From the IMG/VR virus record IMGVR_UViG_3300001460_000267, positions 1 to 20,918 of that record: a stretch of 20,918 nt of DNA. The stretch is one strand, 5' to 3'. Below the pieces are notes generated by a model, which was not told the DNA's origin, searched no databases, and saw nothing but the letters and a program-made list of their open reading frames with translations. Every line of letters begins with the position of its first letter. Position 1 is the stretch's first letter. The translations under genes were made by a program, and so were the position numbers. Source of the DNA: a virus. Below are positions 1-19,877 of this stretch, piece after piece.

Positions 1-381
1 GATAGAGTTGAAGACGCTATCTATGCAACGAGAGCAGCTTTACAAGAAGGTATTGTTGCCGGCGGTGGTGTTGCTTTATTGAATGCAGCACTAAGTATAG
101 ATGAAAAAAATATTGGTGAAAAGATATTAAGTCAAGCAATTGTCTCCCCATTTAGAACCATTCTAGATAATGCAGGTATAGAAAATGCTAAAGTTCCAAA
201 GAAAACCGGGTATGGTATTAATGTAATTACAGGTAAAGAAGTTAATATGGTTAAAACTGGTATAATTGATCCAGTATTAGTAACAAAGACAGCGCTGAAG
301 AATGCAGTTAGTGTTGTTAATACTATATTTTCTGCAGATTGTGTAATCTCTAATATAAGAATAGACAATGCAAGCAATTAA
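1..381 (+). CDS. groEL: Chaperonin GroEL, C-terminal part (5' end outside window)
   Basis: This is the last 126 residues of a GroEL-type chaperonin, the ATP-driven barrel that folds proteins in the cytoplasm. Frame 1 is open from the first base and begins DRVEDAIYATRAALQEG followed by IVAGGGVAL. That is the highly conserved start of the second half of the equatorial domain. The Asp coded at 13-15 aligns with E. coli GroEL Asp398, which is needed for ATP hydrolysis. GYGINVITG and the stretch GIIDPVLVTKTAL match the usual C-terminal nucleotide-binding elements. The protein ends at NASN, so the Gly-Gly-Met tail of most bacterial GroELs is absent. The groES start lies inside its last codons (14-base overlap), which makes translational coupling likely. 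It sits in a phage late operon, so I read it as phage-encoded rather than host. The apical domain is outside the window, so completeness cannot be judged. Confidence 0.93.
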   Translation, partial: DRVEDAIYATRAALQEGIVAGGGVALLNAALSIDEKNIGEKILSQAIVSPFRTILDNAGIENAKVPKKTGYGINVITGKEVNMVKTGIIDPVLVTKTALKNAVSVVNTIFSADCVISNIRIDNASN

Positions 382-625
382 TTATTATCTAGTTATTGAA
401 AAAATAAAAGAAGCGCCGAAGAAAGTAGGTGGCTTAGAGCTTACGGAAGATCAGAATAAAGATGTAAGGTATGCAAAAGGAAAAATAATATCTGTTGGAG
501 ATAAAGTGGAAATGTTAAAAACAGATGATATAGTACATTACGATAAACACGCTGGACACGGAATAGAGTGGAAAGACAAATTATACTATGTATTAAAGCT
601 AGGGGATATAGTTTTAGTTGAATGA
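368..625 (+). CDS. groES: Co-chaperonin GroES
   Basis: An 85-residue chaperonin-10 protein, the lid that closes the GroEL cavity. It is slightly shorter than the 95-100 residues usual for bacterial GroES. Three parts of the fold can be seen. The N-terminal strand is YYLVIEKIKEAP. The mobile loop is centred on VGGLELTE (residues 20-27), the counterpart of the GGIVLTG segment that docks into GroEL. The body has GKIISVGD, then DDIVHYDKHAG and a final YVLKLGDIVLVE resembling the ESDILAIVE ending. The start at 368 lies inside the end of groEL, and its stop overlaps the next start as ATGA at 622-625. Phages are known to encode their own co-chaperonins (for example T4 gp31). Here the cognate GroEL is encoded immediately upstream, so the two probably act as a pair. 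Confidence 0.92.
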   Translation: MQAINYYLVIEKIKEAPKKVGGLELTEDQNKDVRYAKGKIISVGDKVEMLKTDDIVHYDKHAGHGIEWKDKLYYVLKLGDIVLVE

Positions 626-1062
626 GACTAGACGCTAGTGACATAAAAGAATTAAATTTATTAAAGTATTATAGGCTCATTCGTAAATGGGCCTGTAAAA
701 CTTATGACCTAAAAGATGCTGATTTAGAACTTTTAGTGTATTTAGATTGCAAATCGCGATTTACACGTAATGAATTTATAGAAGGCGTATATACATATTC
801 CTGGGATAAAACCCGATGGGATAGACTCAGAAAAAATGGGTGGATAGATGTATGGCGCCAAAGAAATAGAACAACTATAAAATATAGTATATACAAAACC
901 TCATTTAAATGTAGTCAACTCATATCTCGTATATACAGAATAATGCTCGCGCAAGAAGACTTACCTACTAGCGAGCGAAGTGTATTTTATAACAATAAAT
1001 CATATACTGATAAAGTCTATAATAAAGCTATAGATGATATGATTAAAGATAAAGATCGCTAA
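622..1062 (+). CDS. Unrecognised 146-aa protein, possible winged-helix fold
   Basis: I do not recognise this protein by name. Its layout resembles a MarR-like winged helix. There is an N-terminal helix (LNLLKYYRLIRKWACKTY, residues 11-28). A helix-turn-helix-like stretch follows: DLELLVYL, then RFTRNEFIEG, then SWDKTRWDRLRKNGWIDVWR. Next come a possible wing (RQRNRTTIKYSIY) and a C-terminal helix rich in Arg and Ile (residues 97-110). The GWI turn just before the wing is typical of such folds. If so, it may bind DNA and regulate late genes, but no function is proven. It is tightly embedded between groES (ATGA overlap at 622) and the HExxH gene (TAATG overlap at 1060-1064), so it is co-transcribed and translationally coupled. 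Confidence 0.72.
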   Translation: MRLDASDIKELNLLKYYRLIRKWACKTYDLKDADLELLVYLDCKSRFTRNEFIEGVYTYSWDKTRWDRLRKNGWIDVWRQRNRTTIKYSIYKTSFKCSQLISRIYRIMLAQEDLPTSERSVFYNNKSYTDKVYNKAIDDMIKDKDR

Positions 1063-3052: not shown

Positions 3053-3418
3053 ATGAAAAAAACAATTTTAGCATTAGCTATGCTTTTTAGCGTAGTTGTA
3101 AACGGACAAGACTTTTCAGGTATATGGCAAGACGAGGGAGATTCATCTTTCTATGTTGTGATATTAAATAATAAGGAAAAAGGATTAATATTTTCAAACT
3201 TTTCATTTATAGAACAAAATTTAATTCAAGAAAAAGTTTTAAATAGAGATGAAGATGTTGTAAAAACCGTTGTGCACAATCCCAATAATGGGTGGAGGAC
3301 TTTTTGCAAGTATACATATATTAACAGAAATACTATTCAAATTGAGTATACAGGTGATATTAGAAAAACTTCCTTTTTACATAGAAAAAAAATAACCGAT
3401 GTCAAAAATACTATCTAA
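3053..3418 (+). CDS. Secreted small protein with Sec signal peptide
   Basis: A 121-residue protein with a clear type I signal peptide: MKK, the hydrophobic core TILALAMLFSVVV, then NGQDF. Cleavage is likely after Gly18, leaving Gln at the mature N-terminus, a pattern characteristic of Bacteroidota exported proteins. There is no lipobox cysteine. The mature part begins FSGIWQDEGDSSFYVVILNN and continues with alternating polar and hydrophobic segments, as in a small lipocalin-like beta-barrel. One Cys is present (FCKYTY). Being next to the holin, it could act in the periplasm at lysis or in superinfection exclusion; neither is shown. It may also be a captured host-type protein. It begins 42 bases after the previous stop, one of the larger gaps in the window, and its last 20 bases overlap the holin start. 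Confidence 0.8.
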   Translation: MKKTILALAMLFSVVVNGQDFSGIWQDEGDSSFYVVILNNKEKGLIFSNFSFIEQNLIQEKVLNRDEDVVKTVVHNPNNGWRTFCKYTYINRNTIQIEYTGDIRKTSFLHRKKITDVKNTI

Positions 3419-3797
3419 ATTATTTGGTAATGCCAGTGGGACTATAATAGATAAGCTCTCTGGCGTTGCCGATAAGTTTATTCGAACTAGTGATGAAAAA
3501 GCTGAGTTTGAAAAAGAAATGACGCAAATATTTATAGAAGCAGAAAAAGAAATGCAAAAGAATGTAACCGAAAGATGGAAAGCGGACTTAGAGCATGGTA
3601 ACTGGTTTACTAGATCAGTTAGACCGTTAGTATTAGTATTCTTAATTGTAACTACTATATTAATGGTTTTTGTTGATTCCGGTTCTATAGCTTTTGAAGT
3701 AGAAGAAAAATGGACAGATCTTTTACAATTAGTTTTAATAACAGTAATCGGTGCCTATTTTGGCGGACGATCTGTTGAAAAAATAAAAAAAAAATAA
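3399..3797 (+). CDS. Holin of the GTA/3TM family
   Basis: A 132-residue membrane protein that fits the family known as holin of 3TMs for gene-transfer release. Residues 1-30 form an amphipathic head (SKILSKLFGNASGTIIDKL). Residues 31-65 are a charged helix (DEKAEFEKEMTQIFIEAEKE), followed by the conserved GNWFTRSVRPLVLV junction. Two hydrophobic helices are plain: about 75-93 (RPLVLVFLIVTTILMVFVD) and about 107-123 (DLLQLVLITVIGAYFGG). The tail is basic (RSVEKIKKK). It should oligomerise in the inner membrane and release lytic enzymes or depolarise the cell at the end of infection. Its start lies inside the end of the secreted-protein gene, and its stop abuts the next start at 3798. No endolysin was recognised beside it. 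Confidence 0.85.
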   Translation: MSKILSKLFGNASGTIIDKLSGVADKFIRTSDEKAEFEKEMTQIFIEAEKEMQKNVTERWKADLEHGNWFTRSVRPLVLVFLIVTTILMVFVDSGSIAFEVEEKWTDLLQLVLITVIGAYFGGRSVEKIKKK

Positions 3798-5884: not shown

Positions 5885-6076
5885 ATGATAATAAAATTAA
5901 AATATAACAAAGCAGAGAAGACACTTGAGGTATCTAACGATTACCCTGAGTGTCCTGTTGTTATAAACCCAAACGCTACGGTAGACGATGATGATAATCT
6001 ATCAATAGAAGTATCAGTAAACACTAGTTACCTAGCAGAAATACAATCATATTTAGATGGCAGCGTTAACGAGTAG
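5885..6076 (+). CDS. Hypothetical 63-aa acidic protein in the fibre operon
   Basis: Not recognised. The 63 residues begin with strand-like MIIKLKYNKAEKTLEV, continue with YPECPVVINPNATVDDDDN, and end with IEVSVNTSYLAEIQSYLDGS. The composition fits a small beta protein with a C-terminal helix. It could be a fibre connector or a chaperone for the spike that follows, but nothing in the sequence proves that. Its last 20 bases overlap the start of the 846-aa spike gene, indicating translational coupling. The leader is AT-rich (AATATAATTAA) without a Shine-Dalgarno. Confidence 0.65.
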   Translation: MIIKLKYNKAEKTLEVSNDYPECPVVINPNATVDDDDNLSIEVSVNTSYLAEIQSYLDGSVNE

Positions 6077-8597
6077 TCAATCGGGTAATTGGGCATCATC
6101 ATCTACTTGGGGTGGTTCAACTCCAGCAGACGGTGATACATTTACTATTGCTCAAGGGCATAAGGTTACAGTTAACTCTGATCAAAGAGCTGGGGTTGGT
6201 TTTGGTGACATATTAGTTAGAGGTTGTTTACATTTTGCTACTAATGGTAAAATAAGAATGAACGGTAGGATTACTGTTCAAGGTAACGGTTCTACTGATT
6301 ATTCAAAAAGCGGTGGAGTTTCTGCACAGGATTTTACTGAAGGTGGTGGTTCTTCTGGGGCTTTACTTTCAGCAACAGGTAACAATATAACTTTAGAGTT
6401 TGAGGGCACTAACACTGATCAACACGGCATATGGATAGAAAATGTAACGTATTCGTCTTGGAAGTTTACAGGTGATGATAGTGTAACTACAACAACATTG
6501 TCAGCTGATGCAGATGTAGAGGATTATTATTTAACTGTTGCCGATGAAACAGGTTTTGGCGTTGGTGATTGGGTAGCAATATATAATGCTGGTCAAGGAG
6601 ATTACAGAGTTAGAGCAGATGAAGGTTGTTGGGTTCATGACATTGACACTTCAAACAATAGAATATATACAAAAAAATTCGTAGGCCCGAAAGCAATAGT
6701 TTCTTCTGCTAGCGGCACATCGTTAGTTGTTGACTGGAGTAGTATATTTAGAGTAGGATATATTATTATATTTGGTACTGGCAACAATCTAAATGTTAGA
6801 ACAATAACAGCGATAAACAATACAACAAACACATTAACTTTAAACTCAAGTATATCTGGTACTATATCAAGTGGTACGGAGGTATATGAGACTGGTTTTG
6901 ATAAAAAACATTTATCAGGCAACACTGTTAGAAGAAATGCAACTGTGCTTACTAGTGCTGCTGCTGTAAGTGATACTACTGTAACCATTAGTAATGCAAC
7001 AGATATAAGTGTTGGAGATACCATAAACATTGACGTTAATAATGATGTTGATACAAATTGGGATTATAATAGTGAATACTCAGTAACCGCTAAAAGTGGT
7101 AACACACTAACAGTTAGTCCAGCTATAGCAAACGTAAGAAAAGTTGGTAGTTTAGTTCAAAGGTTAAATAGATCAATAGAGATAACAGGAGTTGACACTG
7201 ACGTAAGAGCTTTTACTTATGTAGAGTATTGGACTGATTATAGTCAAGCTAGTACTAGAGAAATAGTGCTAAAAGATATAATATGGAATCGCATGGGTGG
7301 TAACACTAATAACACTTTTTACCAACCTATGTGTTTTGTAGCTGGATATAATAGTAGATATAGAGATAATGACAATGCCACAGATTCTAGATACGATTGT
7401 CAAAGTAAGTATGAAAATTGTGTTGCTTTAAATATAAACAACAACCCTAGTTACGGCGGCTTGAGTACTAGACACCCACATAGCTTTGTACATAGAAATT
7501 GTGTACAGGTTAATTCTGGTCAAAGAGGTGGATTTCAATGGTCTTCACACCACGACATACAGTATGTCAATAACTACACTACCCGTAACTCTTACAACAG
7601 TTTACATAATGACGGTATGTATGAGGCAAACGAATGGGCTTACTTATACTTTACTAGATCTGATGATTACGGTATGATGTTGCATCATAACAGAGAAATG
7701 AACCCTGTACATAACGTTATACTATTGCACCATGAGAATAGACCGATGTACATGTATTACCAAGCTCCCAACACAACATTTAAAAGATTTCACATAGATG
7801 GTTGGAGACATATACCGTATATCGGTATAGGTGGTGGTGATGCTGTGTTTAAAGATTCATACATACAAAACAAGTGGTATAAACAAGTTCCAGGTATATA
7901 TGCTGGATATACAGATACTTTTGGTATTGTTGACTCTAATGATTATTTTGGTAATGGTGGCGGTGATAGTAAAGCTAATAGTTATAGAGGTGGTGGTAAT
8001 TGGATGATGAGTCAATATCAAGACTGGTGTTTTCAAGAAAATTTAAACGCTGTTATTGAAAACTCTTATAATTTAAAATGGAATTTTGACGGTGGTAACA
8101 TATGGAATGTTATTAATTTAAGATCAGAATACTATCTAGTAGGCCAAGAAATACTTCATGTGCCAGCTAATACATCTGTAATTATAAAAGGTGAGTTTAA
8201 AGGACAGTCTGATGGTTCTTGGAGTTATCCTTATATATGTGCAAAACCACATACTAATAATGCTCTCGGTAGGTATCAGACAGCTTATACAAACCAAACA
8301 TCTTATGGCACTAGTTCAGATACAGATGTGAAGAGAAGCATGGTAAATGGATTTAAAGACGAAGTAAGGTTTGACAGCGCTGTTGGTGTTTGGCAACAAA
8401 AAACATTAACAGTGGCAGCACAAAAATATGGCTACACTTTAATAACAGGGTACAGCTGGGACAGTGATAACCAAGAAGAAATAGGTTACATAAGAGATTT
8501 AAAAATTATTTTTCCATCTCCCCCTAAAATAAAAATGAAAGGGTCTAAAGGAATTGAACTTAGTGTGAGTAGAAAACGAATATCAGGAAGAATTTAA
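6057..8597 (+). CDS. Tail spike with G8-like domain and beta-helix
   Basis: An 846-residue spike. Residues about 8-140 resemble a G8 domain: SGNWASSSTWGGSTPADGDT, then FTIAQGHKVTVNSD, GFGDILVRGCLHFA, KIRMNGRITVQGNG and later ITLEFEGTNTDQHGIWIENV. Three diverged copies of a small GDxxxI beta unit follow at about 158-205, 214-276 and 297-366. They are marked by GFGVGDWVAIYN, FRVGYIIIFG and ISVGDTINID, each followed by a strand such as NTLTLNSSI or NTLTVSPAI. From about 380 to 700 the sequence reads as a right-handed beta-helix rich in His, Tyr, Asn and Trp (SFVHRNCVQVNSGQRGGFQW; MMLHHNREMNPVHNVILLHH). The end (about 700-846) is a separate beta domain. G8 plus beta-helix proteins elsewhere act on or bind polysaccharides, so a glycan-depolymerising spike is plausible. 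No catalytic pair can be named. Confidence 0.85.
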   Translation: MAALTSSQSGNWASSSTWGGSTPADGDTFTIAQGHKVTVNSDQRAGVGFGDILVRGCLHFATNGKIRMNGRITVQGNGSTDYSKSGGVSAQDFTEGGGSSGALLSATGNNITLEFEGTNTDQHGIWIENVTYSSWKFTGDDSVTTTTLSADADVEDYYLTVADETGFGVGDWVAIYNAGQGDYRVRADEGCWVHDIDTSNNRIYTKKFVGPKAIVSSASGTSLVVDWSSIFRVGYIIIFGTGNNLNVRTITAINNTTNTLTLNSSISGTISSGTEVYETGFDKKHLSGNTVRRNATVLTSAAAVSDTTVTISNATDISVGDTINIDVNNDVDTNWDYNSEYSVTAKSGNTLTVSPAIANVRKVGSLVQRLNRSIEITGVDTDVRAFTYVEYWTDYSQASTREIVLKDIIWNRMGGNTNNTFYQPMCFVAGYNSRYRDNDNATDSRYDCQSKYENCVALNINNNPSYGGLSTRHPHSFVHRNCVQVNSGQRGGFQWSSHHDIQYVNNYTTRNSYNSLHNDGMYEANEWAYLYFTRSDDYGMMLHHNREMNPVHNVILLHHENRPMYMYYQAPNTTFKRFHIDGWRHIPYIGIGGGDAVFKDSYIQNKWYKQVPGIYAGYTDTFGIVDSNDYFGNGGGDSKANSYRGGGNWMMSQYQDWCFQENLNAVIENSYNLKWNFDGGNIWNVINLRSEYYLVGQEILHVPANTSVIIKGEFKGQSDGSWSYPYICAKPHTNNALGRYQTAYTNQTSYGTSSDTDVKRSMVNGFKDEVRFDSAVGVWQQKTLTVAAQKYGYTLITGYSWDSDNQEEIGYIRDLKIIFPSPPKIKMKGSKGIELSVSRKRISGRI
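6084..6476 (+). other. G8-like domain within the 846-aa spike
   Basis: Codes for residues about 10-140 of the spike. The diagnostic pattern is the opening NWASSSTWGG, then P-x-DGD-x-FTI, the GHKVTV strand, and a ladder of short strands with alternating Gly. In known G8-containing proteins this element precedes a parallel beta-helix, as here. Domain limits are by eye. Confidence 0.6.
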
Positions 8598-16649: not shown

Positions 16650-16845
16650 TATTGGCAGAGATTATAAAAATGATGCAATGCATTATGCAGTAGGCCAAGA
16701 AGTTTATGGCGGTCACACTATATGTGATATAGTTGAAAAAGATCATAAATTTTCTATTTTTATTAAAAAAAATAATGAGGTATTACCTTGGAAAGATTTT
16801 AATAAGAACATGGCGGTTGCAATTGAATATAATTTAGAATATTAA
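16627..16845 (+). CDS. Small conserved phage protein, function unknown
   Basis: About 72 residues. The core IGRDYKNDAMHYAVGQEVYG then GHTICDIVEKDHKFSIFIKK and VLPWKDFNKNMAVAIEYNLEY looks like a small beta barrel or SH3-like fold with a long hairpin. I do not know its function. The start is uncertain. ATG at 16627 is used here and overlaps the upstream gene by 23 bases. TTG at 16618 is an alternative, and the conserved part could even begin at the ATT near 16645 or 16651. Its stop overlaps the next start as TAATG at 16843-16847, so translation is coupled to the tandem GroES-like gene. Confidence 0.65.
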   Translation: MGLIRKISIGRDYKNDAMHYAVGQEVYGGHTICDIVEKDHKFSIFIKKNNEVLPWKDFNKNMAVAIEYNLEY

Positions 16846-17441
16846 TGCAAAGTATATTTGATTTTATAATAAAACCAAAATCCAATAGATACGACAATAC
16901 CAAACAAATCGGTGATACAGAGCTGCTGTTGAATACAGAAATATCTGACCACCGGTATGTTAGTCGTGTTGGAATAGTATTGGCTACACCAAAGCATCAA
17001 GAAACAGAAATACAAGTGGGAGACGAAGTTATTGTTCATCACAATGTGTTTAGAAGATTCTACGATGTTTACGGTGTTGAAAAAAACAGTAGGAGTTATT
17101 ATAAAGAAGATAAATACTTTGTAAAATCAGATCAAATATTTCTTTACAAAAGAAACAACTTATGGTACGCACCAGAAGGTTATTGTTTTGTTAAACCAAT
17201 TGAATCAAATAATATATTATTAGAAAAAGAAATTCCATTAAGAGGAATTATAAAGTATATTGACAAAAATCTTAAAGATATAAATAAAAATGATTTAGTT
17301 GGATTTACACCTAGCAGTGAATATGAATTTGTTGTTGATGGTGAAAGATTATACAGAGTATTAACTAATTCAATATCTATTAAGTATGAACGTCAAGGAA
17401 ACGAAAAAGAATATAATCCTAGCTGGGCAGCGAGCTGTTGA
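16845..17441 (+). CDS. Probable tandem GroES-like (chaperonin-10 fold) protein
   Basis: A 198-residue protein that reads as two GroES-like units. Unit 1 (about 4-103) has FDFIIKPKSNRYDNT, IGDTELLLNTEI (mobile-loop-like, ending in LLL), RVGIVLATPK (the GxVxAV strand), IQVGDEVIVHHNV (the VKVGDxVxF strand) and YFVKSDQIFLYK (the final strand). Unit 2 (about 108-192) repeats the scheme: EGYCFVKPIE, NILLEKEIPLRGIIKYID, DINKNDLVGFTPSSEY, LYRVLTNSISIKYE. Identity between the units is low and the call rests on the order of motifs. If it is a co-chaperonin-like protein, it could adapt phage or host GroEL to a phage substrate. It could also be a fold-alike with a structural role. It sits directly upstream of the terminase genes. 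Its last 56 bases overlap the probable small terminase start. Confidence 0.6.
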   Translation: MQSIFDFIIKPKSNRYDNTKQIGDTELLLNTEISDHRYVSRVGIVLATPKHQETEIQVGDEVIVHHNVFRRFYDVYGVEKNSRSYYKEDKYFVKSDQIFLYKRNNLWYAPEGYCFVKPIESNNILLEKEIPLRGIIKYIDKNLKDINKNDLVGFTPSSEYEFVVDGERLYRVLTNSISIKYERQGNEKEYNPSWAASC

Positions 17442-17658
17442 AGAACTTATTAAAGTTGCTAAAGAAGCTATTGTAGATTCTAGCGATGATTTATCAGCTG
17501 ACAGACTTAAAAATGCAGCGGCTACAAAAAAACTTGCAATATTCGATGCTTTTGAGATACTTAATCGTATTGAAGAAGAAAAAGCCTTATTAGATAATAA
17601 ACCTTTGAGCAAAAAAGAAGATGCTTTTAAAGGGTTTGCAGAAAGAAGATCTAAGTAA
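17386..17658 (+). CDS. terS: Probable terminase small subunit
   Basis: A 90-residue, mostly helical protein immediately upstream of the large terminase (TAATG overlap at 17656-17660). Helices are suggested at NIILAGQRAVEELIKVAKEA and at LKNAAATKKLAIFDAFEILN with RIEEEKALLD after it. The C-terminus is FKGFAERRSK. Small terminases recognise phage DNA and recruit the large subunit. They are commonly small helical proteins in just this position. There is no obvious helix-turn-helix, so the call rests mainly on location, size and general similarity to proteins in the same slot in other phages. The start at 17386 lies within the preceding gene. An alternative reading is a different helical packaging accessory. 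Confidence 0.55.
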   Translation: MNVKETKKNIILAGQRAVEELIKVAKEAIVDSSDDLSADRLKNAAATKKLAIFDAFEILNRIEEEKALLDNKPLSKKEDAFKGFAERRSK

Positions 17659-19877
17659 TGTATAAGCAATCATTATATAACATTATAGAGCCTATTAAAA
17701 TTAATACTATTAAAAGGCTTAATAAAGGAAAAAAGTGGAAATACGGATATAATAAGGAACATGACGTTGTTGTTATAAGCAAAACAGGTATGATAGGTGA
17801 TATATATGAGATACAGAATCTTAAAATAGCATTACCTAAACAGCCCAAAGATGTTTTTAAAGGTAATGATATATGGGAGGTTCAAGAATATCCTAAAGAA
17901 TTGCAAAAAATAAAAACAATATTTGATTGGCGAGATTTGCCAGCAGATTTTAAAAACAAATGGCATGGGTATATTGATTCAGAATTTATTAAAAGAGAAG
18001 AAGGTTTTTGGTTTTATAACAAAGGGACTCGCACTTACATTACTGGTACTCATTACATGTACCTGCAGTGGACCAAGATTGATGTTGGGAAGCCAGAGTT
18101 TCGAGAAGCAAATAGATTATTCTTCCTTTTCTGGGAAGCTTGTAAGGCAGATATACGATCCTATGGGATGTGTTACCTCAAGAACCGTAGATCTGGTTTC
18201 TCTTTCATGGCCTCAGGAGAGGTGGTCAATTTGGCGACCATATCCTCGGACTCGAGATATGGAATTTTATCTAAATCTGGGGCTGATGCCAAGAAGATGT
18301 TTACCGATAAAGTGGTTCCCATATCAGTTAACTATCCCTTCTTTTTCAAGCCCATCCAGGATGGTATGGACAGGCCCAAGACCGAGCTCGCTTTCAGAGT
18401 CCCAGCAAGTAAGTTCACAAGAAGAAAACTTACCGCCAACGAAGCCATCGAGGATATACAAGGATTGGACACCACGATCGATTGGAAAAACACCGGCGAT
18501 AACTCCTATGATGGTGAGAAACTCGCCCTCCTCGTTCATGACGAAGCCGGTAAATGGGAGCGCCCCGAGAACATCCTCAACAACTGGCGTGTTACGAAAA
18601 CCACCCTTAGATTAGGTAGCAGAATTATTGGAAAATGTATGATGGGATCAACAAGCAACTCATCAGACAAAGGAGGTGAAAACTTTAAAAAACTATATAA
18701 CAATTCAGATGTTACAAAACGAAACCGCAATGGGCAGACTCGCTCAGGATTATATTCTTTGTTCATACCTATGGAATGGAACTTCGAGGGATTCATTGAT
18801 TCTAATGGAATACCTGTATTCGAAACACCAAAAACAGAAGTTAAAGATGTACACGGAGAAGAAATTGACACTGGCGTTATTGAACACTGGGAAAATGAAG
18901 TTGATGGCTTAAAAGGTGACCAAGACGCATTAAATGAATTTTACAGACAATTCCCAAGGACAGAGGAGCACGCTTTCAGAGATGAAACTAAAAACAGTAT
19001 ATTTAACTTAGCTAAGATATATGAGCAAATAGATTACAATGACGAAGTTGCTAATATGTCAAGTGTTACTACTGGTAGCTTTTCTTGGAAAAACGGTATC
19101 AAAGATACTAAAGTTCAATTTTCACCAAACCCTAATGGAAGATTTAAAGTTAGCTGGGTACCAAGTTTAAAGTTACAGAATAATATTATAATTAAAAACG
19201 GTACAAAATATCCAGGCAATGAGCATATGGGTGCTTTTGGTTGTGATAGTTACGATATATCAGGGACAACAGATGGGCAAGGCTCTAAAGGTTCTTTGCA
19301 TGGATTAACAAAATTTAGCATGGAAAACGCTCCTGCTAATATGTTTTTTTTAGAATATGTGGCTAGACCACAAACTGCAGAAATGTTTTTTGAAGATATG
19401 TTAATGGCGCTAGTATTTTATGGTATGCCACTACTTGCAGAAAACAATAAACCAAGATTATTATATTATATAAAAAGAAGAGGCTATAGAGGTTTTAGTA
19501 TGAATAGACCAGACAGAGCTAGAAATAAATTATCAATTACAGAAAAAGAAATAGGTGGAATACCTAACTCAAGCGAAGATATAAGACAAGCTCATGCTGC
19601 TGCAATTGAAACATATATAAATGATTACGTTGGTATTATAGACGAAGGCCAGTACGGAAATTTATATTTTAATAGAACATTAAACGATTGGGCTAAATTT
19701 GATATAAACAAGAGAACAAAGTTTGATGCAGCTATAAGCTCAGGGTTAGCAATTATGGCATGTAATAAAAATAAATATAGACCTAACGCTGAGTTAATAA
19801 GACAAAAAGTTAATATCACTTTGAATAAATACGAAAATAAAGGAACTCTATCAAAAATAATAAAGAATTATGGCTGA
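17658..19877 (+). CDS. terL: Terminase large subunit
   Basis: The 739-residue DNA-packaging motor, an ATPase plus headful or site nuclease that docks on the portal. The N-terminal 120 residues are an extension rich in Lys and aromatic residues. The ATPase core has a TerL-type Walker A region, YLKNRRSGFSFM (residues 173-184), in which RRSG replaces the textbook GxxGxGK. Walker B is LALLVHDEAGKW, with Asp295 and catalytic Glu296. A coupling motif around MMGSTSNSS follows (328-336). The nuclease part shows GAFGCDSYD (Asp530), FFLEYVAR (Glu566) and FDAAISSGLA (Asp690), in the order expected for the acidic metal ligands. Bases about 18055-18609 have GC content and codon choice unlike the rest of the gene, yet the frame is intact. 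The portal start overlaps its last eight bases. Confidence 0.92.
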   Translation: MYKQSLYNIIEPIKINTIKRLNKGKKWKYGYNKEHDVVVISKTGMIGDIYEIQNLKIALPKQPKDVFKGNDIWEVQEYPKELQKIKTIFDWRDLPADFKNKWHGYIDSEFIKREEGFWFYNKGTRTYITGTHYMYLQWTKIDVGKPEFREANRLFFLFWEACKADIRSYGMCYLKNRRSGFSFMASGEVVNLATISSDSRYGILSKSGADAKKMFTDKVVPISVNYPFFFKPIQDGMDRPKTELAFRVPASKFTRRKLTANEAIEDIQGLDTTIDWKNTGDNSYDGEKLALLVHDEAGKWERPENILNNWRVTKTTLRLGSRIIGKCMMGSTSNSSDKGGENFKKLYNNSDVTKRNRNGQTRSGLYSLFIPMEWNFEGFIDSNGIPVFETPKTEVKDVHGEEIDTGVIEHWENEVDGLKGDQDALNEFYRQFPRTEEHAFRDETKNSIFNLAKIYEQIDYNDEVANMSSVTTGSFSWKNGIKDTKVQFSPNPNGRFKVSWVPSLKLQNNIIIKNGTKYPGNEHMGAFGCDSYDISGTTDGQGSKGSLHGLTKFSMENAPANMFFLEYVARPQTAEMFFEDMLMALVFYGMPLLAENNKPRLLYYIKRRGYRGFSMNRPDRARNKLSITEKEIGGIPNSSEDIRQAHAAAIETYINDYVGIIDEGQYGNLYFNRTLNDWAKFDINKRTKFDAAISSGLAIMACNKNKYRPNAELIRQKVNITLNKYENKGTLSKIIKNYG
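18055..18609 (+). other. Codon-usage and GC island inside terL
   Basis: By hand count 18061-18600 is about 47% GC (253 of 540). Sampled 60-base lines of the same gene on either side are roughly 22-38%. Inside the island Leu is mostly CTC, CTG, CTT or TTG, Lys often AAG, and Ala, Thr, Pro and Ile often end in C. Outside, TTA, AAA and A/T-ending codons dominate. The reading frame and the terminase motifs (Walker A at residues 173-184, Walker B at 290-296) continue through it. The right edge is sharp near 18609; the left edge near 18055 is softer. Confidence 0.8.

Follow-up and report, generated by a model that had tools for sequence, protein, structure and literature searches.

A phage-lineage groEL-groES pair with a tail-less barrel and a roofless lid in the virus record IMGVR_UViG_3300001460_000267

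In the literature consulted, phage chaperonins are of two kinds: lids that serve the host GroEL (gp31 of phage T4), and barrels described as working without a lid (phages EL, OBP and AR9). According to PMC6318259, gp31 lacks the roof loops, which gives a wider opening, and the folding of the large capsid protein gp23 by GroEL-gp31 is believed to be made possible by differences of this kind; the GroEL-gp31 chamber is given as 8% larger, which is ascribed mainly to the longer mobile loops of gp31 (22 residues versus 16). For phage EL, a new interface geometry with 1:1 contacts is described in PMC7185714, which also states that some phages encode both GroEL and GroES. Both genes are reported for Panino (PMC11590407) and GroEL homologues for 36 'group 2' flavobacterial phage genomes (Nishimura 2017; PMC5332604). 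Here, we describe a groEL-groES pair at the start of the linear IMG/VR virus record IMGVR_UViG_3300001460_000267 (20,918 bases, analysed over its whole length and hereafter called the window). This is a true chaperonin pair of a phage, on which selection acts in the relatives; it is apparently standard in its group and already partly known. The window probably encodes a group I chaperonin of phage lineage, with a more open cage that would serve virion proteins.

The first open reading frame (ORF) of the window (1..381, + strand) is the 3' end of a phage groEL, encoding 126 residues from about position 394 of the E. coli protein to the end, the 5' part lying beyond the contig. In Pfam and PHROG profile searches of the window ORFs, it matched Cpn60_TCP1 (PF00118; 57.7 bits, E 1.2e-15, cut-off 34.3) and PHROG 5725 'chaperonin groEL' (1.3e-31). 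At least 593 IMG/VR stretches encode a relative of this fragment according to one scan, which argues that the pair is genuine and not a chance resemblance. The best 80 of these, a sample close to the window, were analysed; 63 entered the GroEL alignment, numbered by E. coli GroEL, and the 17 that are not full length were left out. The host GroEL set consisted of 60 Bacteroidota and 14 proteobacterial sequences and the host GroES set of 70 sequences, proteobacteria included; L088 (unknown residues), L100, L102, L104, L107 and L108 (duplicate contigs of metagenome-assembled genomes, MAGs), L103 (masked), L093 and L110 (cut) and L096 were not used, such labels being our contig handles. The fragment is 84% identical to its counterpart in contig L002, where groEL is a complete ORF of 523 residues, and 37-49% identical to Bacteroidota GroEL. 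To look for the upstream part of groEL, the viral contigs were searched for exact copies of a 35-base pattern taken at the beginning of the window; there was no match in this search, from which near-window records were possibly excluded.

Catalytic, apical and intra-ring positions are those generally assigned in E. coli GroEL. On this numbering, the fragment retains both Asp398, the ATPase aspartate (13..15, +), and Asp495; D52, GDGTTT at 86-91, D398 and D495 are present in all 63 full-length relatives, as are the replacements P33 to A and A480 to V. The window GroEL ends six residues past position 525 without a Gly-Gly-Met (GGM) motif, as the preliminary description, made from the letters alone, had read it. 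The phage relatives have 2-8 residues past this position versus 14-27 in the 60 Bacteroidota GroELs, and a GGM-like end is found in none of the 63 versus 55 of the 60. Such an end occurs in only one of 14 other phage rows (including one MAG row, L105), so that tail loss is, as far as the alignment goes, common among phage GroELs. The GGM-rich tail is typical of group I chaperonins and not strictly defining, since five of the 60 Bacteroidota are also without a match.

The second ORF (368..625, +) encodes a GroES of 85 residues without the roof hairpin. It passed the cut-off of Cpn10 (PF00166; 36.8 bits, E 4e-9, cut-off 21.1) and matched PHROG 3188 'co-chaperonin GroES' (4.1e-11). Its AlphaFold2 (AF2) model has a predicted local distance difference test score (pLDDT) of 87.4, with the lowest confidence at residues 21-30, and is structurally closest to the Thermus Cpn10 1wnr (Z 11.7, root-mean-square deviation 1.3, 75 residues aligned). 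The mobile loop, an invariant Gly followed by Leu-Glu-Leu, was located by alignment at 407..460 (+): G24 is present in 80 of 80 relatives, position 25 is Leu (76) or Phe (4), and the window reads L-E-L with Glu at 26. This segment has 18 residues in 74 of the 80 relatives and is no longer than in hosts. The roof turn (494..520, +) is shortened to nine residues, a length shared by 79 of the 80 relatives (12 in the other) versus 12-18 in the 70 hosts (18 in E. coli, 13 in 38 of the 70), and the model has no strand in it. As the roof beta-hairpin is absent in gp31 as well, it does not strictly define GroES/Cpn10.

The two genes overlap by 14 nt (368..381, +), the last codons and the stop of groEL containing the groES start codon in another frame, in line with the initial reading of a groEL overlapping a short groES. 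Given this position of the start codon, ribosomes that terminate on groEL could reinitiate on groES, and the two proteins would likely be co-translated. groEL stands directly before groES in 80 of 80 relatives, with the groES start lying 14 nt (71), 17 nt (8) or 1 nt (1) within groEL. A Cpn10 ORF stands ahead of groEL on the same strand in all 73 bacterial loci scanned, a count made after removal of two phage records (L180 and L181) from 75 groES-first loci. One of them, CAKLQF020000019 (L180), is named Acinetobacter phage MD-2021a and has groES-groEL amid housekeeping-type genes, resembling a bacterial chromosome. A complete matched pair, which the preliminary description held to be less common, thus proves to be the rule here: it is present in all 80 best relatives, as well as in elemoE, phi38:1, ctfjg026 and Panino. 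Directly upstream of groEL, the relatives carry a conserved small gene (94-122 residues); with the copy of contig L012 (6497-6781) as query, a match at E <=1e-5 was obtained for 47 of 56 upstream ORFs, this copy among them, and two copies tested had no Pfam or PHROG match. The protein (L012:6497-6781 and equivalents) ends in KGPKVVKTF or similar in many relatives.

The gene appears intact in the relatives. Indeed, groEL is full-length and open in 63 of the 80, and the remaining 17 run off the 5' end of their contig; the broken groEL that had been envisaged as an alternative was thus not seen. The ratio of nonsynonymous to synonymous substitution rates (dN/dS) is 0.104 for groEL (12 pairs) and 0.090 for groES (21 pairs), low values that indicate selection for function in the relatives. 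In a tree of 68 rows, the window, the phage contigs and phage-like MAG contigs fall on one side of a branch (100/97), the window is sister to L002 (99/96), and none of the sampled Bacteroidota or proteobacterial GroELs is on that side. This tree was made after dropping EL, cr111 and L105 as long branches and 12 further rows for speed; a first tree held 22 of the 63 viral, 14 of 30 and 16 of 30 Bacteroidota and nine of the 14 proteobacterial rows. Its deeper placement is unsure, as the window covers no more than 23% of the columns and the phage side includes several long branches. The virioplankton chaperonins of Marine et al. (2017) may include this phage group.

An assembly chimera or a recent capture of host genes is very improbable. 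Such an origin would accord with the mixed affinities of the window, its GroEL being nearest L002, its GroES nearest L012 (92%) and its downstream DNA nearest L012 and L038, and with a DNA identity to L012 of only 50-67% in most 60-base steps from 61 to 240. However, the DNA agrees with that of L012 at 87% over 1-60 and at 80-93% over 241 to about 480; a single variable segment is conspicuous; a comparable mixture is present in L005; and the tree excludes the sampled hosts, contrary to the placement within a host clade by misassembly that had been considered beforehand. Host capture or misassembly was therefore set aside, as neither the tree, with its phage clade, nor the DNA identity scan supports it. 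As a separate observation, the groEL segment at 61-240 of the window, which diverges from L012 far more than the sequence on either side, coincides in part with the region of ring-ring contacts.

This region, aligned to E. coli positions 434-464 (100..192, +), is very variable among the phage relatives. A109 and E434 are inter-ring sites. The further inter-ring sites R452, E461, S463, V464, K105 and D435 were taken from PMC5575113. Opposite charges at both 105-435 and 452-461 are found in 60 of 60 Bacteroidota and 14 of 14 proteobacterial GroELs, versus one of 63 phage GroELs; neither salt bridge is possible in 44 of the 63, and the 452-461 pair is kept in 18. With gaps treated as an additional letter, seven ring-ring columns have a mean entropy of 2.87 versus 0.88 across the equatorial domain (none of 10,000 random draws as high), and contact sites conserved in hosts turned variable in five of six cases versus 18 of 135 equatorial sites likewise conserved in hosts (hypergeometric 1.4e-4). 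At 16 ring-ring sites, dN/dS is 0.27 versus 0.089 for the rest; diversifying selection at this face was considered and rejected in favour of relaxed constraint, the average of 0.27 being below 1. The segments 37-50 and 514-523, which we presume to be intra-ring contacts, are more conserved in the phage GroELs than in hosts. Taken at the level of sequence, the ring-ring contact has probably changed in this phage group.

A single-ring or loosely paired GroEL, in which one heptamer would work together with the phage GroES in the manner described for mitochondrial Hsp60, is suggested by the loss of both inter-ring salt bridges in nearly all phage GroELs when all 74 hosts keep them, by contact columns that mostly belong to the more variable ones of the protein (gap-free ranks 4 to 130 of 505) and have a raised dN/dS beside conserved intra-ring segments, and by mitochondrial Hsp60, which lacks the same two salt bridges (PMC5575113). 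However, the window itself keeps R452 and E461, with an acid (E) at 435, A463 and K464, residue 105 lying beyond the contig, and the 18 relatives that keep the 452-461 pair speak in the same sense. Moreover, E461 is only 130th and E434 54th of 505 in gap-free variability; in hosts, the conservation of the contact columns is close to that of the average equatorial column and no higher (0.70 versus 0.76); indels near 107-109 and 464-475 blur the alignment and make it less sure; and an interface of another geometry, like that of EL, would look alike. The comparison of single- and double-ring contacts proposed at the outset thus gave a divided answer, with erosion across the clade and retention of R452 and E461 in the window. 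For the clade, a single ring is a reasonable hypothesis, and for the window phage a weaker one; as an account of the pair itself, it is entertained as a tentative possibility.

A barrel with the ATPase site and without the GGM tail, capped by a lid with the mobile loop and without the roof hairpin, both as read from the alignments, would give a roomier or more open cage. Such a cage could fold phage proteins that are too big or too awkward for the host cage, most likely those of the head or other virion proteins; the very large fibres or the capsid protein are the candidate substrates put forward in the preliminary description. Alternatively, the pair might mainly serve general proteostasis, standing in for a host chaperonin that has been switched off or has become limiting in the infected cell. 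A complete pair would indeed give independence from the host GroEL, and the ATPase site is fully kept. However, apical residues and the pairs 83/327 and 197/386 differ from those of hosts in most relatives, which suggests specialised clients: in the 63 relatives, Y199 is L (60) or I (3), L234 is Q (63) and L259 is K (46), positions 234 and 259 being substrate or GroES contacts. Furthermore, four related Pachyviridae (the Cellulophaga phages NC_021792, NC_021803, KC821620 and KC821608) have two Cpn10 each and no GroEL in a Pfam search, and the host GroEL is presumably enough for them. Replacement of the host chaperonin is therefore regarded as unlikely, and the more open cage for virion proteins is preferred.

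Further genes of the window may be linked to this cage. A long GroES-like protein of 198 residues, with a putatively Cpn10-like C-terminal half according to hhalign, is encoded upstream of the large terminase gene terL (16845..17441, +). It matched PHROG 13932 'co-chaperonin GroES' (1.3e-17) and had no Pfam match. When five named phage homologues were added, hhalign comparison of this family with GroES sets gave 94-97% for the C-terminal half, 11-24% for the N-terminal half and 0.1-0.2% for a control protein; in a profile comparison without these five, the C-terminal half reached only 1.2-1.7%. A tandem Cpn10 was considered and set aside, the N-terminal half not being established at 11-24% and the two halves giving 1.8% against each other. 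The homologues of phi46:3 (5.2e-8) and phi38:1 (2e-6) passed the Cpn10 cut-off, and those of Panino and elemoE had no match. The gene is present in 45 of 45 loci with TerL in view. Homologues are annotated as co-chaperonin GroES or cpn10 in the elemo phages, phi38:1, Calle and Panino, and a gene resembling it occupies the corresponding position in the Pachyviridae; 'chaperonin cpn10' is listed among the Pervagoviridae core proteins in PMC8776804. Among nine named relatives subjected to a Pfam search, GroEL was found in four (phi38:1, Panino, ctfjg026 and elemoE), each with both genes, and Gundel_1 had neither GroEL nor Cpn10; together with the four Pachyviridae, this indicates that the long GroES-like gene by terL occurs without GroEL, and that TerL occurs without it. 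The protein could act as an alternative lid or as a head-assembly factor. A more elaborate three-part chaperonin, with a tail-less single-ring GroEL, a roofless translation-linked GroES and a two-domain Cpn20-like lid by the terminase for head assembly, has a low probability; it would mean that a single-ring GroEL evolved with its own lids, unlike the phage single rings described as lid-free.

A protein of 146 residues (622..1062, +), whose gene overlaps groES by 4 nt, is probably a MarR-like regulator according to its model, a winged helix of MarR type (AF2, Foldseek). It had no Pfam match in the window. A matching ORF was found in 88 of the 89 loci searched. With the start set at the first Met, this ORF shares 4 nt with groES in 36 loci and begins several hundred bases downstream in others, some of these starts being mis-set by that rule. 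The model has a pLDDT of 84.8, and MarR-type regulators make up most of the 50 Foldseek rows listed (best E 1.7e-3, TM <=0.51). This protein may set the timing of operon expression.

Genes on the strand of the chaperonins continue through a holin (3399-3797, +; PHROG 3427, 1.3e-24), fibre-like ORFs (named from length and repeats, without a family match), TerL (17658..19877, +; PHROG 6681, 4.7e-162) and a portal cut by the contig end (19870..20916, +; PHROG 6547, 8.2e-62), which fits the late operon proposed in the preliminary description. TerL is present in 20 of 20 large groEL contigs chosen from the 80; in three of these (G111, G116 and G125), the TerL match contains one in-frame stop. The nearest named TerLs are those of ctfjg026 (64%) and then of flavobacterial phages. 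A Shine-Dalgarno core was found at none of 20 window gene starts, and the G+C content is 34.8%; given the translation traits of Bacteroidota, this fits a probable host in that phylum. Seven MAG matches with discordant labels (Alphaproteobacteria, Maricaulis, Sphingobacteriales, Euryarchaeota, Flavobacteriaceae, Rickettsiales and Aliivibrio) were taken as phage contigs in bins and were not used to name a host. Elsewhere in the window, a small basic protein (1466-1759) has a DUF6321 match (7.8e-9); an ORF of 846 residues (6057-8597) has sub-threshold matches to K1-lyase Rider and G8 domains and is possibly a tail-spike depolymerase; and no RNA family or tRNA was matched within the 20,918 bases.

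Several observations weigh against a dedicated, more open cage linked to the late genes. With contacts 234 and 259 polar or charged, the binding of clients and of the lid by the phage GroEL may differ. The window GroES has only the open roof in common with gp31, its mobile loop being of host length, so that a larger cage volume is unsupported. The model of the 146-residue protein had no Foldseek match reaching E 0.001. As for linkage, groEL was found in 10 of 16 contigs chosen from 80 TerL hits; the six without it end 2.4-7.2 kb upstream of TerL and, since the window groEL ends 17 kb upstream of TerL, are too short to show its absence. In elemoE and ctfjg026, the chaperonin genes are placed elsewhere relative to the late genes, and in elemoE on the strand opposite TerL.

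Among the papers listed in a literature search, with subscription papers mostly outside its scope, there was no report of the overlapping groEL-groES order, of a roofless lid together with a tail-less barrel, of an eroded ring-ring face, of a MarR-like companion or of a TerL-linked long GroES as a second lid. The closest named systems are elemoE (Elemovirus, a Flavobacterium phage) and the uncultured podovirus ctfjg026 (MW202828), which, like the window, have groEL followed by groES, no GGM end and a short roof, as well as a related TerL, a MarR-like homologue nearby and a long GroES-like gene upstream of terL. However, their GroELs are only 36-38% identical to that of L002, and the MarR-like homologue lies on the strand opposite groEL. 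The Callevirus phi38:1 (Pervagoviridae) shares with the window the GroEL and GroES genes, a related TerL and a long GroES-like gene by terL. In phi38:1, however, groES comes before groEL, the two are separated by one gene, and they lie close to genes for DNA polymerase and exonuclease. The GroESL of Bacteroidota belongs to the same group I family and has the same ATPase site, but differs in having groES first, a GGM-like end in 55 of 60, a longer roof and both ring-ring salt bridges in 60 of 60.

Like the window GroES, T4 gp31 has no roof loops, and the window model aligns with it at Z 9.9 and 9.2; unlike it, gp31 has longer mobile loops and partners the host GroEL, whereas the window phage brings its own. 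The chaperonins of EL, OBP and AR9 are phage-encoded and GroEL-like, as in the window, those of OBP and AR9 being single-ring (PMC9598537 and PMC5934643), but are described as working without a co-chaperonin; the EL protein shares 25.5% identity with the GroEL of L002 across 76% of the latter. In summary, the barrel tail, the lid roof and probably the ring-ring contact changed together as a linked set in the best 80 of at least 593 relatives. This set provides a natural case for asking if a single ring is able to cycle with a lid and in what way a cage is tuned to its clients, and the cultured relatives in Elemovirus and Callevirus make the chaperonin pair testable in the laboratory.
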